Assembly (NCBI GenBank): GCA_003211205.1
Contig: QCTJ01000009.1
Span: forward strand, 1-64,000
Length of the DNA stretch: 64,000 nt
Direction: 5' to 3'
DNA from: Synechococcus sp. AG-673-F03
GTDB lineage: Bacteria > Cyanobacteriota > Cyanobacteriia > PCC-6307 > Cyanobiaceae
A program made the translations under genes and the position numbers. Shown piece after piece: positions 41,924 through 60,959 of the stretch. Numbering within the stretch: position 1 is the first letter of the stretch; each line of letters starts with the position of its first letter. The notes beneath the pieces were generated by a model. That model made no database searches. It was not told the origin of the DNA and was given only the letters and a program-made list of their open reading frames with translations.

Positions 41924-41952
41924 CAATGCATCAATGCATCAATGCATCAATA
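41924..41952. repeat. 8-bp tandem repeat over the protease stop codon
   Basis: CAATGCAT is repeated three times (41924-41931, 41932-41939, 41940-41947) with a partial fourth copy. It lies in the short gap between the convergent giant and protease genes and covers the last codons and the TGA of the protease (stop at 41931-41933). The unit is not a multiple of three. With one copy fewer, the protease frame would pass the present stop and add about 22 residues. I see no clear terminator in the 64-base gap. Confidence 0.85.
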
Positions 41953-43603: not shown

Positions 43604-46600
43604 TCACAAGGAGGAGATTGATTGGTCTAGCAGTGAAACCTGAGAAACAATATCAGGTGTCACACCAGGCAAACTTTCGTTGAAGACAATCTGATCAGGA
43701 TTAATCTGCGAGGATAAAATACCCTGAAGAATAACAAGGTCACCATGACCAGTCAGCGAAACTTTAGCACCAGCAGCAGTATCGGTAATTAACATCTTCG
43801 CGTCAAGGTTAGTTCCATTGAAGTCGATATCTTGATGGCCAAGAGATGAAATATTATTGACCGCAATCAGATCATCTGATTTGAAGTCGAGAATACGGTT
43901 AGTCCCGGTTCCCGACTCGTTCGAAAATTCAAACTGAGAAGTATGGATGTGGAAAATATCCGAGCCTGAACCACCAAAGAGACGATTGCCCGAACCACGA
44001 ACAATCAAAGTGTCATCACCTGAACCAGCAACAAGTGAGTCATTGGAACCACCAATTAACATGTCCTCACCTGCGCCACCAATGAGCTGAGATGTTCCAA
44101 GACCGCGTTGGGCAATAAGAAGGTCACGACCAACACCACCAACTGAACGACTGCCATCGGAAGAAACAATAGAGTCGTTGCCAGCAAATCCATAAACAAC
44201 AGGGGTATCCGAAGCAGCTGCAGGGCTATCTAATGCATTCCTTAGCAATGAAACCGAGTCGTTGAGATTCGATGCGAGGATCGAATCTGCTTGGTTATGA
44301 GACAGATCAATATTGAGTGATTGAGTTGAGGTGACTGGTGATGCATCAGAAATTATCAGAGAATGATATTGAGAAGAGAGAAGAGAAGAAAGGGTAACAG
44401 GTGCTTGAACCGCCGTAGTTGCTGAATCAGCGTAGGAATGCCACTGAAAACTGACATCAAATGACTGTTCCACATCAGAAAGCACGGTTAGAGACGAAAG
44501 AAGCTGACGTAGATCTGAGATATCAGGAATGGACTGATTAAGAGGGGTGGTTCCTACATATCCAATACGTGCTTGAGATGGATCATTATCATCAATAGAA
44601 AGACGCCAATCACCTAGGTCGATGTCAGATGATAAGTCTAAAGCAGAATTGATAAGAGAAAAGCCAGCGTTTGAAGATGCATTAGAAGGCACAAGCGAAA
44701 GCTTAAGAAATCTTCCTAGATCACCTGGTTCGATGACTAACGATGAATTTATAATAGGACTGACACCACTAATAAAAGTCTTGGTGGACAAAAGATTAGG
44801 AGCGCTGGGAACACCAAGTGAAGGAGATGAAATAGACTGGATAAAGCTAGAATTCTGAAGTTTTAAACCTGCAGACGAAAGAAGCTGATGAATATTAGAA
44901 GTGAAAAAATCAGAACGATGGAGTAGTTCAAAGGAATCCTCTGATATGGAATTAGAGACTTTATCGAAACCCAATTCAAAATCAGAAATTGTCAACTCAT
45001 GCTGCGGAGACTGATTAGTAAAAACACTAATAGTGTCACGACCAACGCCTAAACTACCAGTTAAGGGTTGTGAAAGTAGCGATGTCAAAGAAAGCAAATC
45101 ATCGCCAGCATTTAGGGTAAAACTCTGAAGATCGTCAAAAACAATCAGCTCGTCATCAAAGCCTGTCGCAGATACGTTACGAACAACGAATGATGATTCG
45201 TCGTAGGGCATGGGAAAATCTGACTGGCTAATAATTTCAGCTTTTTTGTCCTGTGGATTAACTCCGCCTTTGATACGAAGAGGGGCAGAGAAAGCAGACA
45301 AGTCAAGATGACCTGTTTCATCAATAAAGGAATCTGCTTTTGAGGAGATAACGTAAGAACTAGAAGAAACCTGAGAGACAAGCCGTGGATCAAAGTCTTG
45401 AGCTAAATGAAGATTGAAGGGACCGGTGGCATCAGGATTAACTGCAGTGAATGCAAGTGTTCCTGGATTTCCTACAAGGCTAGAAGAATCTTCAGAAGAA
45501 AGGAGAACAGTGCCGAGAGAAGAATCAAAGGAAGTGAAATCAGTGAGCTCAGAGAGTTCGGGTTTGAACTCAAGCTCTTGAGGGTCGTAAGATAAAGTGG
45601 ATGAATAAGTGGAGGGAAGTGATAAATCCTGAGTAAAAGAAAGATCAACATTAAGAATATTGCCGGAACCAGGGATATGAACAGGTGTATTGAGAGTTAA
45701 ATCCTGGGATTCAAAAACATTAACAATATCAACCACAAGGGATCTTGAATCTGAGTAAGGAGTATGTTGATCGGAGACTTGTTGATCGGACAGAATTACA
45801 TCAACAGAGTAACTTGCCTTTTGCTCAAAATCTGCTGTAGATTCAAGGGAAAGAAGACCATTAGAAGTAATACTGAAGTATGGTGCATCAGGACCTGCGA
45901 TTAACCATTCTAGAGAATCTTGATCAAACTGACCACCAGAATATTCTAATGAAAATGGAGTATTTTCATTGAGCTGAATAGAGGTATTCGGAGTATCGAT
46001 GAAAGGTGAATCATCGACAGGGGCAACAAGTATTGAGATATTGGAAGAATCTAGAGAAATTGCACCCTGATCACGAGCTGATACGGAGAAAGCATCAACT
46101 AAACCATTAGTATTACTATTGGCAGACCACTCTACAAGATCAGTATGATAAACAACATCGCCTACAGAAAGATTGTTGATAGAACCATCAATTTGCGACT
46201 GAGAAATAATGGAATAGGTATCAAGACCAATAGAGTCAATTACGAATTCACGCTGATGTGGAGCGGAGTCAACATCATCTAGGCCGATGGAAGATGCAAT
46301 ATCATAGAAGTTAAGCAAGAAAGGAGTGTCTTCAGAAGCTGTATGTAGATCAGCTTGATTACCAAACGTATGAGCCTGCTTTAAAATAGTAGGGGCATCG
46401 TTAACTCCTTCCACATCGAATTTAAATAAGTAGGGATCAGAAATTGCACCAAAGGAATCACTTGACGTAATGTTGATACTATATGATGAAACAACACCAT
46501 CACTTAATGACTGGAATAGCTCATGCGAAGTGTCAATAGATAAAAATCCAGTTGATGATATTGATGCAAATTGCTGGCTAGCAGGATCTAATTGAATGGT

Positions 46601-48385
46601 TAGTTGGTCATTAGGGTGATCAACATCAGAAAAGTCAATTTGGAAGGAATTGACAGAGTCTTCAAGAACTATAGGAAGTAAACCGGTAAAAGTAACCTCG
46701 GGAGAATCATTAAGAGATGCAATATTGGCAAGCAACGGACGTGTTGCAACTGAAACATCATTGCCATCAAATGCAGTTACAGATAGAACATGGAAATCAT
46801 TACCATTAAAGTTATAGGGAGGTGTAAATGAAACAATGTCATTGGAATCGGAAGTTAAATCTAAAGTTGCTTGAGTGTCGACAAGATTCTCAGAGTTGAG
46901 AACAAAAATACTGTCGGGATCGTAATTAGAGAGTCTAAACTGAATAGCATCATTGTCGATATCATTGGTCTCAAAGATAGACGATAAAAGTTGATAATTA
47001 ATATCAAACTCGAGATCTTCAGTAAGAGTTAAATTACTAGAGCGTGTTCCAAGTTCAGGGGCATCGTTGACAGGAGAAACAGTTAGAGGGATTGAAAAGG
47101 ACTTAGACCCCGAAGCATCGGAAGGAGACGCAATAAGGTCTAAAAAGATTTGACCGTTGAAGTCAAGAGGAAGATTTCCTTGAATGGAATAGGGAACTGC
47201 TGAGTCGTTAGAGGCAATAAGTTGAAGACTCCCTGGCAGTGGGGATGTATGAGACCAATCAAGCCGCTGTGATAGCTCTCCACTGGTTGCGAAGGGAAGA
47301 TCAATAACAACAGCTGAATCCTCACTGAAAGCAAAATCAGTGGGGATAGTCACGTCGAAATCGAACTTGGGGGCTAAGCTAAACTTATAACCTCGTTGGA
47401 TATATTGCTCAAGAGAATCGTCTATTGAGAAATTACCGAATCCAGTATGGTTGATTTCAACAAAATAACTTCCAGGAGCCAAAGAGGAGTCTGCTAAAAG
47501 ATTCTGACCTGGTAATAGTGTTGTGAGAGAGTCAGAATTTCCAAATTCAGCAGAGATAACGGGGCCAAACTCAGGGGATGAAATGGTAACAGTGCCAGAT
47601 TCTTGAGCTGGAGCTATGTATTCATCTAAAACAAAGGTATCAATTTCAACACCTTCAGGTACTTCAAAATAAACATAATCAACATCATTACTGTCAATAC
47701 CGTTAATGATGGAACCTAACCCAGACTCAGTAAGTGAAAGAAGAGAGGGGTAGCTGGAGCTGTCAGAATATTCCAGAAGTGCAACATAGCCAGATTGGAG
47801 TTGGGAGGGAACTAAAGCAATCGGACCTTGATGGAAAGATCCTTCCACCTCAGGTCGGAAGTCAAGAATTGGAACGTTAACAGGTAAATCGTTAGATGGG
47901 AAATTACCCCCAAGGGATGTATAAATAACAGAACGACCTAGACCAGAATCAGTTAAAATGGAACTTGAAAGTTCTTCTGAAATATCGTATTCATTTGAAT
48001 AAAATTCATTGGCATCATCACTATAATTGTGAAAAGAACCGAAATTCGGAATTGTGGTCTCATCACGCAAAAAACCCTCAAGGCTTGGACTACCAAAATC
48101 TACCTGTAGACCTTCAAAAGGTAAGTTACGGATAGAAAAACCAGCACCAACTAAACCGTAATCCGCAATGCCATTAAGACTTTCAGGGGTATTGGTAAAA
48201 CTACTATATAAAACGCTAAATACGTCGATTGTTGGTGTTAAATCGGTAGCTTGAGGAACAAACTCAGCTTGCGTTAAAGCTTGAGTAATAGATCGACGGA
48301 CAACCTCAAAAGTTTGATTCTGCGTATCAGCACTCACATAGTCTAATAGATTAGAAATAGGAGTTGCAGACATGGGGAAACTCAA
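43604..48385 (-). CDS. Cadherin-like/RTX adhesin-type exoprotein with a cohesin-like domain
   Basis: About 1,590 residues. The long frame begins with TTG at 48385; an ATG four codons later (48373) is the more natural start (MSATPISNLL). After an unrecognised N-terminal 230 residues comes a stretch like a bacterial pre-peptidase C-terminal (PPC) beta domain (residues about 250-345). A series of cadherin-like units follows, marked by the linkers VNDAPEL, LNDSPEV and VNDAPTI. A cohesin-like segment lies at 45325-45710. The C-terminal third ends in RTX units (GGAGEDMLIGG, GSGDDTLIV, GGSGSDIFHI) and a hydrophobic tail, typical of type I secretion substrates. Cadherin-like repeats mediate calcium-dependent adhesion, so a surface or matrix role is likely. 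Unlike its neighbours it lacks the dockerin-like doublet. Lys is about 1% and I see no Cys. Confidence 0.82.
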   Translation of the reverse strand: MSFPMSATPISNLLDYVSADTQNQTFEVVRRSITQALTQAEFVPQATDLTPTIDVFSVLYSSFTNTPESLNGIADYGLVGAGFSIRNLPFEGLQVDFGSPSLEGFLRDETTIPNFGSFHNYSDDANEFYSNEYDISEELSSSILTDSGLGRSVIYTSLGGNFPSNDLPVNVPILDFRPEVEGSFHQGPIALVPSQLQSGYVALLEYSDSSSYPSLLSLTESGLGSIINGIDSNDVDYVYFEVPEGVEIDTFVLDEYIAPAQESGTVTISSPEFGPVISAEFGNSDSLTTLLPGQNLLADSSLAPGSYFVEINHTGFGNFSIDDSLEQYIQRGYKFSLAPKFDFDVTIPTDFAFSEDSAVVIDLPFATSGELSQRLDWSHTSPLPGSLQLIASNDSAVPYSIQGNLPLDFNGQIFLDLIASPSDASGSKSFSIPLTVSPVNDAPELGTRSSNLTLTEDLEFDINYQLLSSIFETNDIDNDAIQFRLSNYDPDSIFVLNSENLVDTQATLDLTSDSNDIVSFTPPYNFNGNDFHVLSVTAFDGNDVSVATRPLLANIASLNDSPEVTFTGLLPIVLEDSVNSFQIDFSDVDHPNDQLTIQLDPASQQFASISSTGFLSIDTSHELFQSLSDGVVSSYSINITSSDSFGAISDPYLFKFDVEGVNDAPTILKQAHTFGNQADLHTASEDTPFLLNFYDIASSIGLDDVDSAPHQREFVIDSIGLDTYSIISQSQIDGSINNLSVGDVVYHTDLVEWSANSNTNGLVDAFSVSARDQGAISLDSSNISILVAPVDDSPFIDTPNTSIQLNENTPFSLEYSGGQFDQDSLEWLIAGPDAPYFSITSNGLLSLESTADFEQKASYSVDVILSDQQVSDQHTPYSDSRSLVVDIVNVFESQDLTLNTPVHIPGSGNILNVDLSFTQDLSLPSTYSSTLSYDPQELEFKPELSELTDFTSFDSSLGTVLLSSEDSSSLVGNPGTLAFTAVNPDATGPFNLHLAQDFDPRLVSQVSSSSYVISSKADSFIDETGHLDLSAFSAPLRIKGGVNPQDKKAEIISQSDFPMPYDESSFVVRNVSATGFDDELIVFDDLQSFTLNAGDDLLSLTSLLSQPLTGSLGVGRDTISVFTNQSPQHELTISDFELGFDKVSNSISEDSFELLHRSDFFTSNIHQLLSSAGLKLQNSSFIQSISSPSLGVPSAPNLLSTKTFISGVSPIINSSLVIEPGDLGRFLKLSLVPSNASSNAGFSLINSALDLSSDIDLGDWRLSIDDNDPSQARIGYVGTTPLNQSIPDISDLRQLLSSLTVLSDVEQSFDVSFQWHSYADSATTAVQAPVTLSSLLSSQYHSLIISDASPVTSTQSLNIDLSHNQADSILASNLNDSVSLLRNALDSPAAASDTPVVYGFAGNDSIVSSDGSRSVGGVGRDLLIAQRGLGTSQLIGGAGEDMLIGGSNDSLVAGSGDDTLIVRGSGNRLFGGSGSDIFHIHTSQFEFSNESGTGTNRILDFKSDDLIAVNNISSLGHQDIDFNGTNLDAKMLITDTAAGAKVSLTGHGDLVILQGILSSQINPDQIVFNESLPGVTPDIVSQVSLLDQSISSL
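45325..45710 (-). other. Cohesin-like domain in the cadherin/RTX protein
   Basis: The stretch reads LNTPVHIPGSGNILNVDLSF, then STLSYDPQELEF, then GTLAFTAVNPDATGPFNLHL. A first strand with IPG, a strand ending in SYDPxxLEF and a later G-x-L-x-F strand follow the cohesin pattern (PVxxxN, LxYDxxxLE, GxLxxxxF). It is a pattern match only, but notable because neighbouring proteins carry dockerin-like loops. Confidence 0.45.
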
Positions 48386-48450: not shown

Positions 48451-48493
48451 ATGCAGAATTTGCATGAAGCAGGTTCTTAGGGTTGGCTAAGAA
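48451..48493 (-). terminator. Two hairpins after the FKBP gene (weak terminator candidate)
   Basis: A perfect 7-bp stem, TTCTTAG/CTAAGAA with a 6-base loop, lies at 48474-48493 and overlaps the stop codon of the FKBP protein. Next in the direction of transcription is a 5-bp AT-rich palindrome, ATGCA/TGCAT (48451-48465), followed on the - strand by TTTT. Stems are short and the T run is weak. Confidence 0.3.
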
Positions 48494-51400
48494 AGTGGTA
48501 AAAGGGTATCAATATGAGAGGAAATAGATTGTGAAGCTTGATGTATGTTGAGATCTAGGTCAGTAAATAGTGGTGATTCAGGGTTAATCGCCTTACTGAC
48601 AAGTGATTCACCGACAAAACTGCCTAACAAGTGACGCAAAACCATGAGCCCATCACCTAGCGGAGTGACCTGTCCGTCACCATCAAGATCCAACAAACCG
48701 GAATCAATACCATACTGAATATTTTGAGAGACATTGGAAGCTGCAAACACACGCGAAGTAGAAAGATAGGGTGAATCTGGATTAATAGCCTTTGAAATCA
48801 AAGCATCAGAACTAAAAGAACCAAACAAGTAACGAATAAGCATCAAACCATCACCGAATGCAGTAGCGACTCCATCACGATCAAAATCAAGCGACCAATC
48901 ATCTTTTATGAGAGTCAGATCAGAGGAAAGGTTAAAAAGGTCAACAGAAGGGGATATTAAAGTATTGCCAAAAGAATCAACAAAGGAGTCAAAAGATGAC
49001 AGGCGAAGAGGACGAAGATCATCTACATTATCAGTCAAAAGGCCTGTTAATAAATCAAACTGAAAAACATCAGAAAATTGAGGTTGGTTCTGAGTGATGG
49101 AGAGTAGTGCCTTAGAACCATTAGAAAGTACTAATGAAGGTGGTGGTGTAAATGAGTCATATAAGACAGGTTCTGAAAACTGTAAATAGAAGGATAAAAT
49201 TGAATTGGAACCGAAAGAACCAGTAGGTGAGCGCAAATCGACTAAGAATGGGGCCTGATCATCAGAAAAAGGCAAATTGAATTGAGGATGACTGAAAACG
49301 GCATTACGTTCGGATGCGTTACCGAGAAGGGAAGTGAGATTGGGAGTAGAAATAGTTGCTAGAGACAAAGATGCTAATTCCATGAGTATTGCGGAGTCGA
49401 TCTCGACATCATCAATAACAATATCTTGATTATTAAGCGAAACAATCTGATTAGAATTAAACAGGCTAAGAATATCGTCAGAAAAGCCAGACAACTTGAC
49501 CACATTAGAAAGGTCGACATGTAGCTCGCCAAGACCTGACAAAAGAGATAAAAGCTCAAAACTATCAAGTTGCTGGTCATTTAGAATAACAAAATCATCT
49601 TCTAAAACATTGATGACACTATCATCCGAAATGCTCAAAAAATCACTAATCGATCCTTCTGAGGAAAGAGAATAGAGCTCAACTCCATGGGAGTAGACAA
49701 TTTGCTGAGTTAATAGAGCAGCAGTGTCATCAGAATTTTTGCGATAACGAATTAGCTCATACCAAGGTACATCGTTATATTGACCGTCAGACCCTAACTG
49801 CCAATCACCAACAGGAAGAGTGACTGTGTCTGAACCAGGACCACCACTAATCCAAGTAAGCAACGAATTGGTTTCAAATAAATCATCACCTTCACCACCA
49901 TCAAGAAAAGCGTAATGAACAGATTCTGATTGAAGTGTATCGTTACCCCATTCACCAAATAAGATTGATGATTGGTTGAAAGATGATAAAAGGTCGTTGC
50001 CATCACCGGCTAGTGCCAGTTTAGGAAATGATATAGAGCCTTCACTCAAGAGAAGATTCAAACCTAGATCAGGTTGATCAGGAACAATATCTATGATATC
50101 AACAGCGGAAGAACCATCGCCAGGACCATAATACTGAGCAAGACTCAAAACATCTCGGTCTGGGGGCAGAACATCATTCAGTTCATTGTAATTAAAAGGA
50201 AGGTCTAAGATCTTATTAGGAACAACCTGAGAAAGAAATAGATGTGGTAATGTGAGATCAGCACGAAGGTCAATATCAAATACTAAATCAGAATCAGGAG
50301 GTATCAGTGAACCACTACCGAAAGTCCCATAAGCAAGTGCAGAGGGAATTAATATTTCAACTGAAGAACCAATAGGAAAGTCCTGAAGACCATATTTCCA
50401 ACCATCAATGACAGGGCTGGACCCAAGAACAAGATCAAAAGGACTGGCACCAGGATTAAGAGAACTATCGAAGACAGTGCCATCAAGTAATTGTCCTGTG
50501 TAATCTACAAGAAGCCTTTGTTGCTGGTAAGTATTAGAACCACTACCAAGTCGATTGATTTGACGTTGGAGGTACAAAGGGCTGCTTGGTCCATCAGGGC
50601 CATCGGGATCTATGGGGAATAATTGAGGGAGATCACCAGGAAGACCAGTACCAGTCAGAAGAGCAGCTTCTACATGGGTATCGGAGTAAAGTCCATTTGG
50701 ACTGGATGCTTGCAGAAAAAGGAAAGAGGGGCCAAGAGAGTCAACATCGAAGTGGTCAATCGGTAGTGAAAAAGACCAATTATTTTGTGATGGATCGGTT
50801 ATGAATTGTGAGTTAGCAATCTCAGAACCTAAAGAAGAAGCCAAACTTAAGGTGATAGATGAATCAGAATCAGATGTACCCTCAACATCAACATAATAAC
50901 CATCAGTAGAATTAGATTTAACAACCACTAAAGATGGCATGGGAAAAGGATCAGATGTATCGCTCTGATTGAAAAGGAAGGTAGGCCGAGAGGGTGGTAA
51001 ATTAGAAGAATAAAAAGAGTTTAAGTCATCTAAATCTATTAATTGAAGCCAAGCACGGCGGTAACTATCGTCAACAAAACCAACAGCAGTTATAGTAGAA
51101 GAAATGGAGGATAAATCGGATTGATCAATAGGGAGATCATGAATATCAAAGGAGACCAAAACATCATCGAAAACAGAGCCAAATTGATGAGTCCATAAAC
51201 GATTGCCATTATTGTCATATCTAGTTATAAAAGAATCAACATCAGTACCGTCTCCGGCAACATCTTGGCCATAAGCACCCTCTGAAGACCCGGATGTCAG
51301 ACCAAGCAGCAAAACGGAACCATCATCAAGAGCAAATAAATCAGTGAGAACTTGATTACCAGGTAGTGCTAAAACACGCTGCCATCTTTGCGATCCATTT

Positions 51401-52305
51401 GAAGAGTAACTAGCTAACGCAATATCATCGCCACCACCCGGAAGATTGAGACCAATGGAACCCTGCAAGGTGCCGCCTATGAAGACAGAATCGAGATTGG
51501 GTTTAGCTGCAATACGTGGGTTTTTTTCAGAGGATGCATTCCCTAATGATGACTCCCAAAGGAAAGAACCATCATGAGAAAAAGCGCTCAAAAGAATATC
51601 AACATCTCCACGTGGAGTCAAGCCACTAGATGATGTGCCAGAAAAGGTAGAGGCTATAAAGTGTATAGGATCTGAAGAGGAGGAAGGATTAATGAAAGTA
51701 GCGTCAAAGGCATCTCCTAGGCCAATAATCGGGTCAGACGACCAGTGAGATGATTGAGGTATTGTAGATAAAGAATTTGTAGAATAAGCAGAAAGGATTG
51801 GTGATTGCTGGAGAGAATCTTCAATAGCAAAGAAAAGACCAGAGTCAGAATCAGTAGAATATATGTGGTTAATATCTTGATCTAACGAATATATGGCATT
51901 GATTTCAAATGAATCATTTGATCCAGATAGATTAACAAGGTGGGATGCTGATGATTGGTGAATAGCGTCTGAGAACAGAGAGATCCACAAAGACAAACCA
52001 CCTTCGGAATCAGAGGATTCATCAACCAATAAAAAACCCGGAAGAGATAAAGATAAATCATTACCGAAAAACTCTTCGTCAGTAGAAAGTGAGAATGAAG
52101 AATTATCGCTGTGAGTAAGTAAACTTGACCAATCTGAAACACGGTGAACGAGAATATCGTTGGCTAAAGAAAGACTGCTGTCCGCAGGAGTAGATGATGA
52201 AGCACCTAAGACAAAACCATCAATAACATGGGAAAACCAAGACGAAGAAGTATTAGATTCATCAAATGGAAATATACTGAGTTGGCGCAGATCGGATGAA
52301 GCCAT
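48487..52305 (-). CDS. Beta-propeller/FKBP-type prolyl isomerase/RTX exoprotein with dockerin-like doublet
   Basis: 1,272 residues from ATG at 52305. Residues about 230-430 show propeller-like repeats (ILLSAFSHDGSFLW, DSFITRYDNNGNRLW), similar to SBBP units. A PSRPTF-led Ig-like unit follows. The FKBP domain (50240-50530) keeps the FKBP active-site landmarks: VDYTG, FDSS, PVIDGW, ALAYG and LVFDIDL. It should therefore catalyse cis-trans isomerisation of Xaa-Pro bonds. RTX-like units (AGDGNDLL, GGEGDDLF, GGPGSDTV) lie downstream, then an Ig-like unit, then two DxDxDG loops (DFDRDGVATAFGDGLM, DLDGDGQVTPLGDGLM) and a terminal helix with SHIDTLLP. No Sec signal peptide is seen. About 1% Lys and no Cys by eye. 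An exported FKBP could assist folding of the Pro-containing exoproteins encoded beside it. Confidence 0.85.
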   Translation of the reverse strand: MASSDLRQLSIFPFDESNTSSSWFSHVIDGFVLGASSSTPADSSLSLANDILVHRVSDWSSLLTHSDNSSFSLSTDEEFFGNDLSLSLPGFLLVDESSDSEGGLSLWISLFSDAIHQSSASHLVNLSGSNDSFEINAIYSLDQDINHIYSTDSDSGLFFAIEDSLQQSPILSAYSTNSLSTIPQSSHWSSDPIIGLGDAFDATFINPSSSSDPIHFIASTFSGTSSSGLTPRGDVDILLSAFSHDGSFLWESSLGNASSEKNPRIAAKPNLDSVFIGGTLQGSIGLNLPGGGDDIALASYSSNGSQRWQRVLALPGNQVLTDLFALDDGSVLLLGLTSGSSEGAYGQDVAGDGTDVDSFITRYDNNGNRLWTHQFGSVFDDVLVSFDIHDLPIDQSDLSSISSTITAVGFVDDSYRRAWLQLIDLDDLNSFYSSNLPPSRPTFLFNQSDTSDPFPMPSLVVVKSNSTDGYYVDVEGTSDSDSSITLSLASSLGSEIANSQFITDPSQNNWSFSLPIDHFDVDSLGPSFLFLQASSPNGLYSDTHVEAALLTGTGLPGDLPQLFPIDPDGPDGPSSPLYLQRQINRLGSGSNTYQQQRLLVDYTGQLLDGTVFDSSLNPGASPFDLVLGSSPVIDGWKYGLQDFPIGSSVEILIPSALAYGTFGSGSLIPPDSDLVFDIDLRADLTLPHLFLSQVVPNKILDLPFNYNELNDVLPPDRDVLSLAQYYGPGDGSSAVDIIDIVPDQPDLGLNLLLSEGSISFPKLALAGDGNDLLSSFNQSSILFGEWGNDTLQSESVHYAFLDGGEGDDLFETNSLLTWISGGPGSDTVTLPVGDWQLGSDGQYNDVPWYELIRYRKNSDDTAALLTQQIVYSHGVELYSLSSEGSISDFLSISDDSVINVLEDDFVILNDQQLDSFELLSLLSGLGELHVDLSNVVKLSGFSDDILSLFNSNQIVSLNNQDIVIDDVEIDSAILMELASLSLATISTPNLTSLLGNASERNAVFSHPQFNLPFSDDQAPFLVDLRSPTGSFGSNSILSFYLQFSEPVLYDSFTPPPSLVLSNGSKALLSITQNQPQFSDVFQFDLLTGLLTDNVDDLRPLRLSSFDSFVDSFGNTLISPSVDLFNLSSDLTLIKDDWSLDFDRDGVATAFGDGLMLIRYLFGSFSSDALISKAINPDSPYLSTSRVFAASNVSQNIQYGIDSGLLDLDGDGQVTPLGDGLMVLRHLLGSFVGESLVSKAINPESPLFTDLDLNIHQASQSISSHIDTLLPLS
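48490..48905 (-). other. Dockerin-like doublet of the FKBP protein
   Basis: Loops DFDRDGVATAFGDGLM and DLDGDGQVTPLGDGLM are 66 residues apart, each followed by xRxLxGSF and LxSKAINPxSP. The last residues form a helix with ISSHIDTLLP. It is the same module as in the giant protein and the M10 protease. Confidence 0.85.
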
Positions 52306-52488: not shown

Positions 52489-52516
52489 GATTATTGACAC
52501 AAGAACAGCAATAATC
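52489..52516 (-). terminator. Hairpin overlapping the haloperoxidase stop codon
   Basis: A perfect 8-bp inverted repeat, GATTATTG/CAATAATC, with a 12-base loop overlaps the TGA at 52515-52517. On the - strand it is followed only by a short TTTC run, so it is a weak terminator or an mRNA-end stabilising stem. The rest of the 209-base gap (52306-52514) is A-rich with no gene. Confidence 0.3.
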
Positions 52517-55500
52517 ACTCAGGAGAAAGTGCTTCAATACGATCTAGAAGAATTTGAGATATGGATTCAGAACTATGAAAAGGGGAATCTAATAAACCAA
52601 ACAGTGGAGAAGCCTCAGAGATAGCTCCTTTTGTAAGGTCAGAACCAGTCATCCCCACCAAACCTCTCATAAGCAAAAGACCATCGGTAAAAGCTAAAGA
52701 TTGACCGTCACCATCAAAATCAAGCCAACCGGAATCGAAGCCGGAATCAAGCCAACCTGTAATGTTATCAGGATTAGAACGTAATCCAGAAGAATTGATT
52801 GCCTTGCGTAAAAGTGAAGGGCCTGTAAAACCAAAAAGATAGCGCATAACAAGAAGCCCATCAGTAAAGGGTCGAACAGAGCCATCACCATCTACATCAA
52901 GGGACCAATCAACAATTTGAATGGGAATAAAATGCTGATCAACGACGACATCAGTTGCAGGATCACGAATTGATAATTCAAGACCAGTTATAGAATCAAT
53001 AGAAGAAGGAGTTAATGGAAGTAAACTCAGACTGCCGAGATCAGTGTTAGTACTAGTAAAAGGGTGATCAAGATCTGAAAAATCTAGTCGGAAATTACGA
53101 ACGTTGCGTCCAAAAGAATCAATTGAATGGCGATAAGACAAGTTGGACGTAATAGAGCTAGTGCTAGGTAAATATGATATTGCTGAAAAATCGTAAGGAA
53201 CATCAAGAGTCAAACTTAAACCATCACGCCAAATATAATTTGAATCATTAGACAAATGGGAAGAAGACAGATTAAAGTTGAGCGGTAGTTGCGGAGGTTT
53301 ATGAGTAGAGAACCAGATGGGTAAAGGAGATGGACTGTACTGTTGAATAACGGTCGAAAAGGTATAATCTTGAGGAACTAACTGAATAGGAATTGAATCG
53401 TTACTCCAAAAAGCCTGATTAAAAGTGTCAATAGGCTGATTTAAAGGTAAATCAGCAAATTTAACTGAACAAAGGTCTAGAAAACTGATGTCAAAGTTTT
53501 GCCATTCAGAGCTCCATTGAAAAGGCAACTCAAGTTCTGTAATATGACTGCCAGATGGGACAGATACTGACCATGTCAGAGGGGAATTATCAATGGGTAG
53601 GAATTTTCTAGGATAAGAATAGCCAGAGTCAGATAAAAGCTCAGATTGATTGGACAAGTGAAATGAAAGCATTAAGTCGCCAGATAGATCTCCCTCGCGC
53701 TTAACCCTAAGAGAAATAGATTCAGATATATGATCAGGGTTCAAAACATCATAAGAAATAAAAGTGGCAAGACGATCAAACAACTGATCAGGTGACCAAG
53801 TGCCATTATCGAAACGAAGCAACTCGATACCAGTAATACGGTCAATATCAGCAAAGCCATTTTTATTAGTAATAGATTCAATGCCTAAAGGAGTGAACTG
53901 ATAATTAAAAACATCTCCTTGAAAAACAACGACATCATTACTGCCATTGCCAATTAAATGATCACTTCCAAGGCCACCGACAAAGATGGTTGATTCGAAA
54001 GAACCCTCAATGTGATCATTTGCAGAACCACCATATACAATCTCAAATTCAGAGAAAGAGCCAGGTGAAGAAGTTGACAACGATAAAGGATTTAAACTGA
54101 TAACAACAGGATCTGTCCAGTTAGAAAAATCTAAAACATCAATACCTGAACCACCGCTGGCGATGCCTTGCCAAGAATTCCCCGGAGTAAGTTGAAGACT
54201 GTCATCTCCATCAGATAAACTAAAATAATCAAGATAGTTGAACGTAAACCCGTCTACAATTGCAGATGAATCAAGATCGATAACCACTTGGTTGGATAAG
54301 AGAAAAGGGTCATGTAGTTCAGTAGAGTGTTGATCATAGGAATGATGGTGTGCTTGATCAAGGACTAAGGTCGAAAGGTGAGATCCAAGTTCTAAGCCAT
54401 CTAAGTTACCGTCAGTAAAATGAATTCCACCATAGAGACGTGATAGCCCTGCATCATTCGATGCTGATGTTAACGTTGGCCAAGAGAGAATGGTATCGAC
54501 AGCAGGTGTTATGGATGGCTCAAACCGCGAACTACCAGCTGGGAAAAGTAAAGAAAGTTCTAATTGATCAGATCCAAAGTATGAACGAAGAACACCAGCA
54601 GCAGCAGAGCTAAAGGTTGAATGACCAGAAACGTATTCAGGGAAAGGAGGTGAAGGATCAGAGCCGGGTAGTTGATAAGGAACCCATGCTTCGAGATTGG
54701 ATCCATCAAGTAAATGTAATGATGAAAGATCCCTAATCGCACGAACTGGACGGGCATAATCAAAGAAAGTTTTAGAATCCCAGGCAGCGATTCCTGCGTC
54801 ACCGAGTGCTTGAGCGACAGCAAAATAAAGTTGAATCTGGTCGGTAAGGTTTAAGTCATACTTGGAAGACATATAGGATGTAATCGCCATCCAAGTGCCA
54901 GGAGGGAACGAGGTGCCGGAACCGTCTTCCCAAAATTCTGCACTAAGTTTTTGTCGATCAGTAAGCGATTCCTGAATATCGACAACGTATTGAGCTTGCG
55001 AGATGAATTCAGGATTAATAAGGAGACCCGTGAAAAAATCATGAGTAGTTGGGTCTTGAAAAGAATAATCTCCAGCAGGAATTTTTATATGATCTGGCGA
55101 TACATCAACGTTATAAACGGACTCGGAAAGAGAAAATATAGCAGAGCTAAGATCGATTGTATAATCAAGATTAGAATGTAGTAGAAATGGTTCGGGTCCA
55201 CCTGGACGCAAAAGTGCAACGTCAGCAAAAGAAAAACCAGGTATTGAACCCCAATACGGAGTTAATTCTGACTGGAGTGGAGCTGATTTATCATCAACGG
55301 GAACATGCTCGGGTCTCCAACGATCAAGACGGGGTATTTGTAGCAAACTATCATCAATCCGTTCAACTGAAGAACTGAAAGGTTCAGAAGGCTGGGAAGA
55401 TAGAGGATCAAGAGGGGGTATTTGTTTTAATTGCTCAATTAACTCAATATCACCTGAGGACAATGAATAATCGGGATTTAAGGGCTCTGAAAACCAGCTT

Positions 55501-55874
55501 GAAAGAAGCCAATTGGCAGATTTAGATAACAAGGAGTCTAAAGAGGTGCTGGGTGAAGATGAAAAGTCAGGGTCAAAATAGACAGGATTTCCTTGACCAG
55601 TAACAATAACAAGTAGATCATGGAAAATAGTGTTTAAAAGGGCATATGCACGAGATGATCTTGTTGGACCAATGGTGTGCTCTGCAATTAAATCAGAGAG
55701 TTTAGAATTCCAAAAGTCAACAGGGGAAGTATCAAGACCTTGAAAATTTATCGAGAAATTTAAAGGATCTAAATAGATATCAGAAGGAAACGATTGAGAA
55801 GATGCAGCATCAATATCGACTGGATTATCCACATATAAAAGACGAGCAAAATCAATTATTGGCTGATATGACAT
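52515..55874 (-). CDS. Vanadium-haloperoxidase-type enzyme with RTX and dockerin-like doublet
   Basis: 1,119 residues from ATG at 55874. The vanadate pocket of the PAP2/vanadium haloperoxidase superfamily is complete: KTFFDYARP (Lys and Arg seven apart, 54733-54775), YVSGHS (Ser-Gly-His, 54620-54645) and SRLYGGIHF (Arg and His six apart, 54410-54450). The enzyme would bind vanadate and oxidise halide with hydrogen peroxide, or act as an acid phosphatase; sequence alone does not decide. It is not the algal-type bromoperoxidase as far as I can tell. Downstream are a few RTX units (GGSGIDVLDF, GGSANDHIEG, GGLGSDHLIG), beta-rich sequence, and two loops of the TDGLL variant (DVDGDGSVRPFTDGLL, DFDGDGQSLAFTDGLL) 59 residues apart, with terminal helix LDRIEALSPE. 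No signal peptide, one Cys, about 15 Lys. It is the first of the four - strand exoprotein genes. Confidence 0.87.
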   Translation of the reverse strand: MSYQPIIDFARLLYVDNPVDIDAASSQSFPSDIYLDPLNFSINFQGLDTSPVDFWNSKLSDLIAEHTIGPTRSSRAYALLNTIFHDLLVIVTGQGNPVYFDPDFSSSPSTSLDSLLSKSANWLLSSWFSEPLNPDYSLSSGDIELIEQLKQIPPLDPLSSQPSEPFSSSVERIDDSLLQIPRLDRWRPEHVPVDDKSAPLQSELTPYWGSIPGFSFADVALLRPGGPEPFLLHSNLDYTIDLSSAIFSLSESVYNVDVSPDHIKIPAGDYSFQDPTTHDFFTGLLINPEFISQAQYVVDIQESLTDRQKLSAEFWEDGSGTSFPPGTWMAITSYMSSKYDLNLTDQIQLYFAVAQALGDAGIAAWDSKTFFDYARPVRAIRDLSSLHLLDGSNLEAWVPYQLPGSDPSPPFPEYVSGHSTFSSAAAGVLRSYFGSDQLELSLLFPAGSSRFEPSITPAVDTILSWPTLTSASNDAGLSRLYGGIHFTDGNLDGLELGSHLSTLVLDQAHHHSYDQHSTELHDPFLLSNQVVIDLDSSAIVDGFTFNYLDYFSLSDGDDSLQLTPGNSWQGIASGGSGIDVLDFSNWTDPVVISLNPLSLSTSSPGSFSEFEIVYGGSANDHIEGSFESTIFVGGLGSDHLIGNGSNDVVVFQGDVFNYQFTPLGIESITNKNGFADIDRITGIELLRFDNGTWSPDQLFDRLATFISYDVLNPDHISESISLRVKREGDLSGDLMLSFHLSNQSELLSDSGYSYPRKFLPIDNSPLTWSVSVPSGSHITELELPFQWSSEWQNFDISFLDLCSVKFADLPLNQPIDTFNQAFWSNDSIPIQLVPQDYTFSTVIQQYSPSPLPIWFSTHKPPQLPLNFNLSSSHLSNDSNYIWRDGLSLTLDVPYDFSAISYLPSTSSITSNLSYRHSIDSFGRNVRNFRLDFSDLDHPFTSTNTDLGSLSLLPLTPSSIDSITGLELSIRDPATDVVVDQHFIPIQIVDWSLDVDGDGSVRPFTDGLLVMRYLFGFTGPSLLRKAINSSGLRSNPDNITGWLDSGFDSGWLDFDGDGQSLAFTDGLLLMRGLVGMTGSDLTKGAISEASPLFGLLDSPFHSSESISQILLDRIEALSPE

Positions 55875-55928
55875 AAAAAAGATAAGGCTTAAGGATCATG
55901 CGCCGAAATACATTTTTAATACGAACCA

Positions 55929-56028: not shown

Positions 56029-57135
56029 TCAAAACAAAGCCATATTCATCACAAAAACTCTAAGAAACCCTTCTAACAAGACAAAGAATAGAACTAGAAA
56101 GCTGGTAAAACGTATTAGAGATACACGGTTACGTTGACTGAGTGGCAGATGTATGGAATAACCAAGGTATTTCTCTAATGCACGGAACCTCCGCATCGAT
56201 ATTTCAGTACGAATTAAATTGACCGATGCAATAACAACAGCGAAAAGAGTAATAATAATACGCAGCCAATAGCTCATGCCTATAAACTTCCAAAGAGGAG
56301 ATATCGAGGCAAAAAGTGCAGCTAAACCTAAAAGGGATGCACCAGGTGCAGCAACAACCATTACAGCACATGGGATCGATAATATCGCCAAAATCAGGCC
56401 ACTAAATTGAGAGAAAAAAGATCTATTCCAAGATTCATATAAGGAAAAAGACTTCTGAGGTAACGAAGAATTATATGAGCGATCATAAATGACAAGATTG
56501 GTTTGATCAGGGGAAGCAAATCCAAGCTCACAAGCAACGTTTGGTTCAGCGATGAGTTGATTCTCTTTTGCAAAGCGAAGTAACTCAGGCGCCCGGAAAG
56601 AAACCTGTCCGATAGGACAAACGGGGGAGGTTCCAAGCTGTCCAAAGATCTCTACGTATCCATTAGCAATCGATGACTTAAAGGGAAAAGAGAGACCTGT
56701 AGCTGACTCCTCATCCTGAACCCAGGCAAAAACAGCCATAACAGAATCGAATGCGACCTGAGAAGGATTATTAATACGAACGGGTGCATTAAAACAAACT
56801 TGAAGAACACCGGGAGGAGAAGATGCCTCAGGCATAACAAGACCGCCTCTCTGCTCAAATAATTCTACAAATCGTGTACGGATGGCCGGTAGCTCCCTGG
56901 CAGACAGTCGGTCTAAAGAAACACGACCAAACCCCAAAGAGTTGGGGAACGAAAGAGAAACGATAGTGACTGGATGTATTTGTCCAACAGTCAAATGCGA
57001 TTCGCAACGATTACACAGATTAGGGTTATCTAGACTTCGTTTAACACCACGCAGTCGTGATAAGGATCCTAAAAATCCACGAAAAGGAACAGAACAAGCT
57101 AGACAATAGGAAGAAAGAGGGAGTCTTCTTAACAT
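56029..57135 (-). CDS. Membrane protein with zinc ribbon and degenerate class III cyclase-like domain
   Basis: 368 residues from ATG at 57135. The N-terminus has a CxxC pair (CLAC), a PFRGF segment and a second CxxC (CNRC) after NPNL, the zinc-ribbon layout found before some bacterial adenylate/guanylate cyclase domains. Residues about 50-220 follow the class III cyclase outline: an opening VTIVSLSF strand, RTRFVELFEQRGGLV, GYVEIFGQLG (like GxxxxGxxG) and a final helix in place of GDxVNxAARL. The metal-binding Asp residues, expected in the first strand and after GGLV, are replaced, and the Asn/Arg pair of the late helix is missing, so activity is unlikely. Residues about 240-365 hold three or four membrane helices. 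The gene follows the LysR-like gene by 17 bases and is probably co-transcribed with it. The cyclase reading is an inference from pattern and order, not from strong identity. Confidence 0.6.
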   Translation of the reverse strand: MLRRLPLSSYCLACSVPFRGFLGSLSRLRGVKRSLDNPNLCNRCESHLTVGQIHPVTIVSLSFPNSLGFGRVSLDRLSARELPAIRTRFVELFEQRGGLVMPEASSPPGVLQVCFNAPVRINNPSQVAFDSVMAVFAWVQDEESATGLSFPFKSSIANGYVEIFGQLGTSPVCPIGQVSFRAPELLRFAKENQLIAEPNVACELGFASPDQTNLVIYDRSYNSSLPQKSFSLYESWNRSFFSQFSGLILAILSIPCAVMVVAAPGASLLGLAALFASISPLWKFIGMSYWLRIIITLFAVVIASVNLIRTEISMRRFRALEKYLGYSIHLPLSQRNRVSLIRFTSFLVLFFVLLEGFLRVFVMNMALF

Positions 57136-57152: not shown

Positions 57153-58106
57153 TTAAGTGTAGCTAGGTTCAAGTGAACGATACGAATCTCTCAATGCTTT
57201 CATAAGTTCCTTAAATAGAGGTTCACGAACTAAAGATGGTGATGCAATAGCAACCATCGACGACCTAGAATCAAATTCGGTGGGTAGTCGATGAAGATTT
57301 GGGGAGAATTCATCGAAGGATAGAGACTGATAAAAACTATCTGGAAATACAGTTAATGAAGCATGATTGGTTTCAAATACTTTATCTAGGTAACAAGAAA
57401 ATTCGAGGTGAGTATCACTCGGAAGGTCATCAACTGCGATAGAGCAATGAGTGGATAAAACAGACTGGACAAGAGTTCTCTGCCAGGATGAACAGTTGGA
57501 GGCAGTAAAAAGTGTGAAAACCTGTCCAAACAAGTCATTAAGCTGAAGAGTTCGTTGAAGCTTTGCCAGATGATGATGAGGTGAAACAAGAAAAACAAAA
57601 GGCTCAGTACCAATCAAAGTAGCAACGGAACCATGGCATGGAGTGAATAGATCTTGTCGAGAAGTTGGTGGGGACCAAGGAAAAGAACATGAAAATTCAA
57701 TATTAGATACTATTAACAAGTCAATGACACCACTATGGATCATATTCATCCGCTCTTGAAGAGAAACATCAACAGGCGGTAAATCCATTAATAATGGAAG
57801 TGACTTGTTGGGGAGACGAATAGAAAGAGGAAAACTAGATAAAACACGTAACTGACCTGATTCGCGGGAACGTAATCTCTGATTGACACGACGAAGGTCA
57901 CGCTGAACATCATGATTCTTCTGAATATTATACAAGCCTGATTTCTTATCCTTTACTAAATCAAGGCTTAAAAGCTTGGCACAAGCAGTTGCTCCACGAA
58001 AAACATTGCTTTGAGCTACACCACAAATTTCAGCAACAGAATAAGTACTGCCATAAAGCTCTAGCAGATCTAAATACAACAAACCTTCGGAGAAAATATC
58101 ACGCAT
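57153..58106 (-). CDS. LysR-like transcriptional regulator
   Basis: 317 residues from ATG at 58106. Residues about 8-50 can form a helix-turn-helix (YSVAEICGVAQSNVFRGATACAKLL), followed by a charged linker helix rich in Arg (QRDLRRVNQRLRSRE). Residues about 85-315 resemble the substrate-binding half of LysR regulators, with SLQERMNMIHSGVIDLLIVSN (like ExxxLxxGxxDLxI) and FVFLVSPHHHLA (like LxVxxxHPLA). It would bind a small ligand and control nearby genes. It is transcribed divergently from the HNOBA-like gene across a 142-base gap with palindromes. The N-terminal HTH departs from the LysR consensus, so family membership is likely but not certain. Confidence 0.6.
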   Translation of the reverse strand: MRDIFSEGLLYLDLLELYGSTYSVAEICGVAQSNVFRGATACAKLLSLDLVKDKKSGLYNIQKNHDVQRDLRRVNQRLRSRESGQLRVLSSFPLSIRLPNKSLPLLMDLPPVDVSLQERMNMIHSGVIDLLIVSNIEFSCSFPWSPPTSRQDLFTPCHGSVATLIGTEPFVFLVSPHHHLAKLQRTLQLNDLFGQVFTLFTASNCSSWQRTLVQSVLSTHCSIAVDDLPSDTHLEFSCYLDKVFETNHASLTVFPDSFYQSLSFDEFSPNLHRLPTEFDSRSSMVAIASPSLVREPLFKELMKALRDSYRSLEPSYT

Positions 58107-58212
58107 TATTTATTCCGGTAAACAAAGTTGAACCGAAGGCGAGAAAAACTTAAGTATATTAAAATATCCAAACAAGGACACTGGCAATAGAAGTGCTAAG
58201 TTAACAAAATAA

Positions 58213-58241
58213 CTACCGAAGGGTAGCTTAAGGTGCTTAAG
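58213..58241. promoter_or_regulatory. Inverted repeat and paired CTTAAG palindromes in the divergent gap (operator candidate)
   Basis: A perfect 5-bp inverted repeat, CTACC-GAAG-GGTAG, lies at 58213-58226. It is followed by two copies of GCTTAAG (58226-58232 and 58235-58241), each holding the palindrome CTTAAG. The block ends seven bases before the ATG of the HNOBA-like gene at 58249 and lies between it and the LysR-like gene. It is a candidate binding site for that regulator or a 5' UTR hairpin; no clear ribosome site is seen. Confidence 0.45.
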
Positions 58242-58248
58242 CATTTCA

Positions 58249-58767
58249 ATGAACATAAACAAGCTCACATTTGATATTAGCGAAATAGAGCACGTCTGCC
58301 CATTCTATTGCCTAACAAACTCTACAGGAATTATACTGAAAACAGGCACGTCCCTCAAAAAGATTTTACATGAGAAAACTACAGAACAAATAAAAGGACA
58401 TATAAGTGATTGGCTGGAGTACGCTGGAGAGGAGTGTGATGCGCAGGACTGGAGACTTGAAAACATAGAGGCAATGCAGCACAGACCATTCAGAGTGAAA
58501 TGTAAGAATGCAGATATTGAACTTGCATGCGAAGCAATTGAGGTAAGCACAAATAAATGGATGGTCATAAAAGAAAAGTACTGGATAGTACTTATGAGAC
58601 CACTATTGCGTAACAGCGAGGACTTGGAAAAATGGGGGCTAACGCTTCAAGACTTTAGCCTAATAGACCCAGCAAGAACAGAACTAGTGAACATGCTCAT
58701 GGAGGAATCACTAAGGAATGAACTAATTAGAGCGGTGAAAATGGAAGAATTTAATACAGAAGAATAA
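58249..58767 (+). CDS. Stand-alone HNOBA-like (PAS-like) domain protein
   Basis: 172 residues from ATG at 58249. The whole protein reads as one HNOBA-type domain: CPFYCLTNSTGIILKTGTSL near residues 18-37 (like PFHxxxDxxLxIxQxGxSL), a central RPF segment, then WIVLMRPLLRNSEDLEKWGL and TLQDFSLIDPARTELVNML (like FLxSPxxxSLxELxxxGLxLxDFxxHDPxRDLL). HNOBA is the PAS-like domain linking H-NOX heme sensors to guanylate cyclases in animals and some bacteria. Here there is no heme-binding H-NOX and no cyclase domain, and the signalling helix at the end is short, so it may act in trans with another protein. It is the only + strand gene after 41866, divergent from the LysR-like gene, and ends two bases from the convergent HlyD gene. 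Confidence 0.65.
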   Translation: MNINKLTFDISEIEHVCPFYCLTNSTGIILKTGTSLKKILHEKTTEQIKGHISDWLEYAGEECDAQDWRLENIEAMQHRPFRVKCKNADIELACEAIEVSTNKWMVIKEKYWIVLMRPLLRNSEDLEKWGLTLQDFSLIDPARTELVNMLMEESLRNELIRAVKMEEFNTEE

Positions 58768-58769
58768 AA

Positions 58770-60137
58770 CTAAAGTTTTTCCATTGAATCCCAGAAGGGT
58801 AAAACACGTCCAGTAAAAATTGCTATAACGGGTCTTTGTCTTAAAATAATATTTGCGGAGACAGACATTCCGGAAAGAAGCTGAAGCTTACGACCTCGAT
58901 AATTCAGATGATCGGAAGCTAAGCTCACAGTAACTGGAAAACGAAAATAGTTATATGTTTGGTCGGGGGAGAGTACATCGGAACCAATAGATTTAACCTT
59001 GCCATCAATATCACCAAACTCATTATAAGGAAAAGCATCAACACGAACATGAACCTTTTGTCCCTTATCAATAAAACCAATATCTTTATTGGTGAGGAAA
59101 ATCCTAGCGACAAGTTGATCAGCTGGTACTATTTTTAAAACAGCTTCGGGTACGTTACCACTAATTACATAACCTGGAGAAGTCGGTTGAAGATCGAAAA
59201 CCACACCCTGGACGGGTGCTTTTATTTTTTGATACTTTAAAGTAAGTTTAGTTTCACTGATTTGATTATCAAGTTCAGCAAGCTGCTTAAGGCCTTCTTC
59301 AACCTTCGTAGAAAAATCAATACGAGTTAAAGCTTGTGTATTAGTAAGCTTCTGCTGAGCTTCTGATAAAGCAGCATTCGCACGAGCCACTGAAGACTTA
59401 AGAGAAGCAACCTCACCTCGCAAAAGCAAAAGATCCTGAAGCTCCTTTAAATAGGTCGATCGTGCAAGCGCACCAACCTTCTCTAAGGGTGAAATATCTT
59501 GGACAACTTGTTCGCGAATAATCAACGCTTCTTTCTTAGCTGATAGTTGTTCTTGGGAAGACAATAGATTTTGCTCTGCCTGCAATACACCAAATCGAGC
59601 TGCTTTGACTCTAGATTCAAATTCAGCACGAAGTGCAGAAAGCTTGCCAGCCTGGTTGGTGTTTAATTGTTCTAAGTCAGCGTCTTCACCAAGTTGAGCT
59701 TTACTAAGTTGTAAATCTGCAGCTACTCTGGAGCGAACCTCTTGAAGGGCTTTAAGTTTGGCAGCTGCAGCCTCTGTATCAATAATCAATAATATCTGAT
59801 CCTTATCAACAAACTCTCCCTCCTTAACAAGAATGTCACGGATAACACCACCAAGAGGGGCTTTAACTTCCTTCGTTGCACCACTCGGTTCTAATTTACC
59901 GACAGCTTGAACGGTCTCATCAATACGCGCAAAACAAGACCATAGGATTCCAAAACCGGCTACTCCTAGAAGGCTATAAAGAATTAAAACGCTCCAACGC
60001 CTACTGGGTTGGAGTGCAGTCCAATGCTGTCGAGAACGATCACGTACTAAGAGATTTACAGCCTTCTCTGATTGTGTTTGTAAACGTGGAAGCGCTCGAT
60101 GTTGAAGCCAATATAAGGGCTTAATTGGTTTTGACAT
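58770..60137 (-). CDS. HlyD-family membrane fusion protein of type I secretion
   Basis: 455 residues from ATG at 60137. Landmarks are a cytoplasmic N-terminus, one membrane helix at about residues 49-68 (VLILYSLLGVAGFGILWSCF), a first lipoyl half with APLGGVIRDILVKEGEFVDK, a long alpha-helical coiled-coil hairpin (about 120-300), the second lipoyl half with IKAPVQGVVFDLQ, and a beta-barrel end. HlyD proteins bridge the inner-membrane ABC exporter and an outer-membrane TolC channel. It lies six bases after the DUF4177-like gene and downstream of the ABC gene on the same strand, so the three probably form one operon. No TolC gene is in the window. Confidence 0.93.
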   Translation of the reverse strand: MSKPIKPLYWLQHRALPRLQTQSEKAVNLLVRDRSRQHWTALQPSRRWSVLILYSLLGVAGFGILWSCFARIDETVQAVGKLEPSGATKEVKAPLGGVIRDILVKEGEFVDKDQILLIIDTEAAAAKLKALQEVRSRVAADLQLSKAQLGEDADLEQLNTNQAGKLSALRAEFESRVKAARFGVLQAEQNLLSSQEQLSAKKEALIIREQVVQDISPLEKVGALARSTYLKELQDLLLLRGEVASLKSSVARANAALSEAQQKLTNTQALTRIDFSTKVEEGLKQLAELDNQISETKLTLKYQKIKAPVQGVVFDLQPTSPGYVISGNVPEAVLKIVPADQLVARIFLTNKDIGFIDKGQKVHVRVDAFPYNEFGDIDGKVKSIGSDVLSPDQTYNYFRFPVTVSLASDHLNYRGRKLQLLSGMSVSANIILRQRPVIAIFTGRVLPFWDSMEKL

Positions 60138-60143
60138 AAAAAC

Positions 60144-60959
60144 TCATCGAAGAAGAGCATCAAAGCGCTCAGAAGTAATCACTTTCCAGAGTCGTTGGGG
60201 TCGACCTCCGTGAACAGAGACCTGTTCACCAAAATAAATGGCAACCAAATTCGATAAGGAACGCTTAGTGATACCAACTTGAAAATTATGCCTCGAGGCA
60301 AAATTAAGTAGACTGGCAGGGGATCGATAGCCTAAAAGACCAGCAGCGCGTGAAGTAGGTATCGGAGTGTCATTAGATAATTGACTCAACAAGTCCGAGG
60401 ATAGAATTGGAACGCTATCATTTAATCGAGAAGGCGTAGAACCAACAGATTCTTGGGCATATCGATTATGTGTAGTACTGAACAATGAGAATTGTTGAGT
60501 TAAGTTAGCGACAAGTGCTTCCAAGCGTTCAAGACGTATATCAGCAGCGTTCGATGAATTAGTAGGAATTGAAGAATCAACGGAGTCATTAGGTGATTGA
60601 TCGCTTGCGTCACTAGGAACAAGAAGTGGACGCTTGAAAATCATAGTTGTCATAGAACCAACCGGAAAAATACCTATGAACTCCCAACCATCTGCACCGA
60701 ATTGGTTGAAAACGTTTTGAAGCTGCAATGCAGGGTGGACAGGTTTTTGAGAAGCCTGTCCAGAAGAAGGATCTTTATGGGATTGAGCGTAATGATCTGG
60801 GAACTCACTCTTTAAATATTGCTCTGAAAATACAGGATCAACCGATGGACGGGGTGATGTATCGGAATCAGGCTGCTGCTGAGCGGGAGTATTATTGATA
60901 TTGACATTTAAGTGTATAACACGTGTTTCCCAACGAGGAATGCCTGAGGGATGCTCCAT
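60144..60959 (-). CDS. DUF4177-like protein of unknown function, between the ABC and HlyD genes
   Basis: 271 residues from ATG at 60959. The N-terminus RWETRVIHLN and the later segment FNQFGADGWEFIGIFPVG followed by MIFKRP match the two ends of DUF4177-type small domains. They are separated by about 60 residues of Pro/Ser/Gln-rich insertion. Residues about 140-165 can form a helix, and residues about 190-225 (IPTSRAAGLLGYRSPASLLNFASRHNF) look like an excisionase/MerR-type helix-turn-helix. Its place inside the secretion operon suggests a regulatory or assembly role for export, but none can be named from sequence. It is soluble, with no membrane helix. Confidence 0.6.
   Translation of the reverse strand: MEHPSGIPRWETRVIHLNVNINNTPAQQQPDSDTSPRPSVDPVFSEQYLKSEFPDHYAQSHKDPSSGQASQKPVHPALQLQNVFNQFGADGWEFIGIFPVGSMTTMIFKRPLLVPSDASDQSPNDSVDSSIPTNSSNAADIRLERLEALVANLTQQFSLFSTTHNRYAQESVGSTPSRLNDSVPILSSDLLSQLSNDTPIPTSRAAGLLGYRSPASLLNFASRHNFQVGITKRSLSNLVAIYFGEQVSVHGGRPQRLWKVITSERFDALLR

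Follow-up and report, generated by a model that had tools for sequence, protein, structure and literature searches.

A free-standing HNOBA domain is encoded at positions 58249-58767 of the window, the whole 64 kb (64,000-nucleotide) stretch of DNA that was analysed, and all five solo HNOBA genes that were found occupy the same place and orientation in one conserved secretion cassette. HNOBA domains are described as linkers coupling an NO-sensing H-NOX domain to an output; here a known domain family appears in a new genetic setting, and family searches in the genomes of four of the five genes detected neither H-NOX nor a class III cyclase. The gene is under purifying selection and is inherited together with a divergent LysR-like regulator. 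The protein is most likely a stand-alone, probably dimeric, probably cofactor-less PAS/helix domain that serves the cassette as a dedicated regulatory adaptor; this is the best-supported reading, though belief and doubt about it are evenly balanced. The cassette in the window comprises the following features.

52515-55874 (-): 1119-aa vanadium-dependent haloperoxidase (VCPO_2nd) whose active-site motifs are intact
56029-57135 (-): membrane protein with an N-terminal Cys4 zinc-ribbon-like motif, a tentative degenerate class III cyclase-like middle and three C-terminal transmembrane segments
57153-58106 (-): LysR-like regulator whose N-terminal HTH is atypical and whose C-terminal half resembles LysR_substrate; transcribed divergently from the HNOBA gene
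58107-58248 (no strand): divergent promoter region of 142 bp with CTTAAG at 58149, 58227 and 58236, a candidate operator
58249-58767 (+): solo HNOBA protein gene, 172 aa, with a PAS core at about residues 7-122 and a C-terminal helix at 141-171
58770-60137 (-): HlyD-type membrane fusion protein, convergent, its stop codon 2 bp from the HNOBA stop
60144-60959 (-): 271-aa protein encoded between the HlyD and ABC genes; it weakly resembles DUF4177/Sp36 and recurs in loci L077 and L078
61044-64000 (-): type I secretion ABC transporter, 1019 aa, the gene running to 64103 on the contig

Identity and predicted fold of the solo protein

The open reading frame fills 58249-58767 (+) exactly, from an ATG start to a TAA stop. 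Its product matches Pfam HNOBA (PF07701) with E=1.4e-5 and 25.1 bits against a cut-off of 23.4, a score that would be marginal if taken alone, and no other Pfam family rose above its own cut-off. The four homologues score 28.3, 33.1, 41.4 and 45.2 bits, placing all five proteins above the cut-off. When a profile of the five was compared with all PDB sequences, guanylate cyclase beta-1 was matched at E of about 7e-8, the alpha-1 chain of soluble guanylate cyclase (sGC) at 1e-4 and the Nostoc STHK PAS domain at 0.012. Within the 172 residues there is no H-NOX domain, no transmembrane segment and no output domain, be it a fused cyclase, kinase or GGDEF. The earlier note, made from the sequence alone, had called this a free-standing HNOBA-like domain, and the significant family match, shared by the homologues, bears it out; its remark that the gene holds only that domain also stands, except that the model ends in a helix of 31 residues (141-171) in the position where the coiled coil of sGC begins. 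A search for freestanding HNOBA found no paper in the literature collection covered.

The AlphaFold2 model of the window protein (pLDDT 74, pTM 0.67) adopts a PAS fold, as the note's family assignment would predict. At E<=0.001 Foldseek gave 19 hits, every one an sGC chain, with 2p08/2p04 coming after these, and VIA-align gave Z 12.5 to sGC beta-1 (8hbf_B, 155 residues) and Z 9.9 to the Nostoc STHK PAS domain (2p08_A, 104 residues, 3.1 A), both higher than the background of 7-8 for PAS domains in general. The top rows of the two programs were sGC, then 4gj4 and 2p08/2p04, and the closest structural match of the predicted model is the PAS domain plus the coiled-coil start of sGC. The H-NOXA/HNOBA domain and the coiled coil of sGC are described as dimerisation elements (PMC2828450), and dimerisation through HNOBA is known for 2p04 as well as for sGC; the solo protein is probably dimeric.

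Residues of the five proteins were compared in window-copy numbering. The five have no haem or flavin ligand in common: C17 and Y20 of the window copy are variable positions, and in place of the usual PFH histidine that copy has a tyrosine. The positions that are conserved among the five are mostly structural or lie within the LTLQD/DP.R linker. P18-F19, G33, L126 and D135, near-invariant in H-NOX-coupled HNOBA, are kept in all five, and T132 and Q134 are fixed in the solo clade. F17, R60, F70, K93, F114 and D144, which are 83-98% conserved in the coupled proteins, are largely changed. As far as the alignment can tell, these losses fit an ancestral H-NOX partnership that was later lost.

Relatives of the solo protein and their genomes

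The picocyanobacterial genome that holds the window (G000) is fragmented, with 2.0 Mb spread over 82 contigs and a completeness of 81%. No relative of the solo protein occurs in the 30 remaining genomes of the genus. Among 400 family genomes, queried with the protein or with its relatives' profile, three further solo HNOBAs were found (G521, G568 and G582); a direct scan of genome contigs with the window protein gave no match, the regulator then served as anchor, and a fifth solo HNOBA (L078) was reached through this neighbour. The four relatives are 22-32% identical to the window copy in a five-way alignment; for L077 a three-way alignment gives 33%. Phages, plasmids and viral contigs yielded no relatives. 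The L078 cassette (NHEC01000070.1) belongs to a metagenome-assembled genome (MAG) labelled Planctomycetes TMED75 and is very close to that of the Synechococcus MAG L077; because the genes of L078 and L077 share about 74-87% identity, the contig was probably misbinned.

Two kinds of candidate were set aside. Weak profile matches to ORFs of 160-180 aa in small picocyanobacterial genomes belong to a different protein family, which we take to be EVE-domain-like (YWLMKSEP), and short HNOBA ORFs in other cyanobacteria are contig-end fragments, frameshifted genes or parts of HNOBA-PAS proteins rather than true solos.

In a tree of 47 HNOBA domains, in which long branches are present, a 100/100 branch separates the solo proteins from picocyanobacterial kinase-type and GGDEF-type, other cyanobacterial and sGC sequences. 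This tree and that of the regulator agree in placing the window copy nearest L077 and L078. Between the last two, dN is 0.16 and dN/dS about 0.07 with dS saturated, which points to purifying selection.

Multidomain picocyanobacterial proteins carry HNOBA ahead of histidine kinase/REC/Hpt or GGDEF domains, and a search for H-NOX (family HNOB) was positive in all eight genomes with such proteins that were checked, each time in a gene adjoining the HNOBA gene. The same search detected no H-NOX in the four solo-HNOBA genomes that could be searched (81-97% complete, carrying four of the five solo genes). A Guanylate_cyc match, the mark of a class III cyclase, was likewise found in 0/4 of these, against 10/11 of the other genomes searched. 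The four genomes contain no second convincing HNOBA by the profile of the solo relatives (A1), on which this absence rests because the HNOBA family search missed even the window gene.

The cassette, its regulator and its membrane protein

The conserved cassette consists of type I secretion genes, the divergent LysR-like regulator, the zinc-ribbon membrane protein and, on every contig that extends far enough, the vanadium haloperoxidase; one carrier is Synechococcus sp. HJ21-Hayes. A divergent HNOBA-regulator pair beside HlyD or ABC genes is also seen in L077, L078, L079 and L080, and the HNOBA gene is convergent with the HlyD or ABC gene, nearly touching or overlapping it. The 271-aa protein scores 25 bits for Sp36, under the cut-off of 50. 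The window haloperoxidase matches VCPO_2nd at E=4e-19. A haloperoxidase gene is present in 4/4 cassettes whose contig extends far enough, and all four enzymes carry the three vanadate-binding motifs (K-x6-RP, SGH and SRxxGxH); as a background, a haloperoxidase-domain match occurs in 26 of 300 family genomes. The haloperoxidase is likely to be a substrate of the type I secretion system.

Large open reading frames surround the cassette. A single ORF of 13,945 aa occupies 29-41866 (+), longer than SwmB of Synechococcus WH8102 (10,791 aa; PMC4949707), and at the C-terminus it is similar to putative secreted proteins encoded nearby. These are encoded at 41931-43541 (-), with a weak Matrixin-type metallopeptidase match and a dockerin-like end; at 43604-48385 (-), of 1593 aa and with no Pfam match; and at 48487-52305 (-), of 1272 aa and with an FKBP domain. 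Beyond the ABC transporter, a giant repeat-like ORF of at least 3142 aa (L137, contig G000:C9, 64499-73927, -) is cut by the contig end. Several of the large putative secreted proteins and the haloperoxidase have a C-terminal ending like I(D/E).L, which is perhaps a common secretion signal.

The regulator scores 24.7 bits for LysR_substrate, below the 28-bit cut-off, and has no standard LysR HTH match. A scan of 84,980 species genomes with two short peptide patterns, which is not exhaustive, found four loci (L077, L078, L079 and L080), each with a divergent solo HNOBA; with the window, the regulator stands beside an HNOBA gene in 5/5 loci. Many picocyanobacteria have more distant relatives of the regulator, most of which are not near secretion genes. 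The nearest outside relative (L117, contig G469:C320) is convergent with HlyD/ABC with no HNOBA between, its far side being cut by the contig, and the haloperoxidase of that genome lies on another contig; since regulator and secretion genes stand together there with no HNOBA between them, the two can occur without it.

Genes for LysR-type regulators classically diverge from a neighbour with which they share a short promoter region, as the pair does here. The 142-bp region contains three CTTAAG sites against ten in the whole 64 kb window, and those at 58227 and 58236 form a GCTTAAGGTGCTTAAGC palindrome (58226-58242) before the HNOBA gene. Another CTTAAG lies at 55888, just upstream of the haloperoxidase start. 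The CTTAAG/GCTTAAGGTGCTTAAGC sites are possible operator sites; neither they nor the palindromes are conserved in the other cassette loci.

Among 40 genomes searched, strong matches to the membrane protein were obtained only in the four solo-HNOBA genomes, and Pfam and NCBIfam contain no family that matches it. A degenerate class III cyclase domain was predicted from its sequence pattern prior to folding. The model of the protein is poor (pLDDT 52); with this low-confidence model the majority of the top 50 Foldseek rows were class III cyclases, the best being Cya2 (2w01, E=7.7e-4), and VIA-align gave Z of about 9 to Rv1625c, while hhalign against a cyanobacterial cyclase profile gave a weak E=0.044. 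The two metal-binding aspartates (FAD.., GD..) are absent from the weak cyclase alignment and from the conserved columns of the family. The membrane protein may thus hold a catalytically dead cyclase domain, a lead drawn from weak structural evidence. A bolder proposal, and a doubtful one, is that the HNOBA domain and helix on a soluble chain and the degenerate, membrane-anchored cyclase-like domain together would form a split, dead relative of sGC, a protein switch controlling haloperoxidase secretion with the LysR-like regulator. It is weakened because the membrane protein of G582 lacks the cyclase-like middle altogether.

Possible roles and comparison with known systems

The function of the solo protein is proposed by guilt by association, from gene association at five loci. 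That it is a cofactor-free dimer, that it regulates, and with which direct partner, on which signal and in which direction it does so are all matters of inference. The protein would have descended from H-NOX/HNOBA signalling and been cut loose from H-NOX and the fused output. The regulator would bind the promoter region that the two divergent genes share, and the HNOBA protein would modulate the regulator or the membrane protein, its two candidate trans partners, through PAS/helix-mediated binding, so that haloperoxidase expression or secretion could be tuned.

Other readings were weighed against this regulatory adaptor. The earlier note had offered a small PAS-like sensor or a partner acting in trans, and while the PAS fold and the free-standing state were found as it supposed, a partnership with H-NOX was not supported. 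A split NO-sensing pathway, in which the protein acts with an H-NOX or another HNOBA protein encoded elsewhere, would agree with the regular pairing of the two families in the eight multidomain picocyanobacteria; against it stand the four solo-HNOBA genomes with neither an H-NOX match nor a second convincing HNOBA, G568 being 97% complete though G000 is at 81%, and the loss of the residues that the coupled set conserves. An H-NOX partner is rejected on good evidence, which is not absolute because the genomes are drafts, and this pathway is very improbable. An autonomous PAS sensor, binding a ligand or cofactor and then acting on the LysR-like regulator, is a possibility of some weight, still rather unlikely: PAS domains are common sensors and the fold is right, but no typical haem- or flavin-binding residue is conserved among the five, and the PFH histidine has become a tyrosine in the window copy, so the sensor of the earlier note finds no support in a conserved cofactor ligand, although a small-molecule ligand could be bound.

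The convergent gene, nearly touching or overlapping HlyD or ABC, might instead encode a protein that assists the secretion machinery or chaperones a substrate, rather than a regulator; this is unlikely, the gene being transcribed against the secretion genes and divergently from the regulator, and the protein being homologous to a signalling domain. Least credible of all is that the protein is a decaying remnant, without function, of what was once an H-NOX/HNOBA/kinase or GGDEF protein. The two missing flanking modules and the long branch of the window copy would suit such a relic, but because the solo HNOBA is conserved (intact in five genomes despite 22-33% identity to the window copy, constant in place and orientation, and with strong purifying selection between L077 and L078 at saturated dS), the relic reading is strongly opposed.

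An HNOBA family conserved without H-NOX or output, in genomes in which no H-NOX is detected, would indicate a stand-alone use for this PAS domain. Its genetic setting also links a signalling protein, together with a regulator and a membrane protein, to a haloperoxidase secretion cassette in picocyanobacteria.

Among known systems, the PAS/H-NOXA (HNOBA) domain of sGC (6jt0, 8hbf, 4gj4) has the same fold, gave the best Foldseek and profile matches and shares the C-terminal linker into a helix; unlike sGC, the solo protein is free-standing and has lost several near-invariant residues, and H-NOX and class III cyclase are neither fused to it nor detected elsewhere in the searched genomes. The H-NOXA/PAS domain of Nostoc punctiforme STHK (2p04, 2p08) has the cyanobacterial HNOBA PAS fold and was crystallised as a dimer, but belongs to a histidine kinase. 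The picocyanobacterial pairs of H-NOX with HNOBA-histidine kinase (REC, Hpt) or HNOBA-GGDEF proteins (for instance L062, L067, L063 and L066) have the same domain of the same family, yet their HNOBA is fused to an output, their H-NOX adjoins and their clades are separate from the solo proteins. The class III cyclases Cya2 (2w01) and Rv1625c (4p2m) resemble the middle domain of the membrane protein in fold as weakly modelled (pLDDT 52), whereas that protein has neither recognisable metal-binding aspartates nor a Pfam match. Synechococcus sp. CC9311 has a vanadium bromoperoxidase (Johnson et al. 2011, cited in PMC10427571), a marine picocyanobacterial vanadium haloperoxidase like the enzyme of the cassette.
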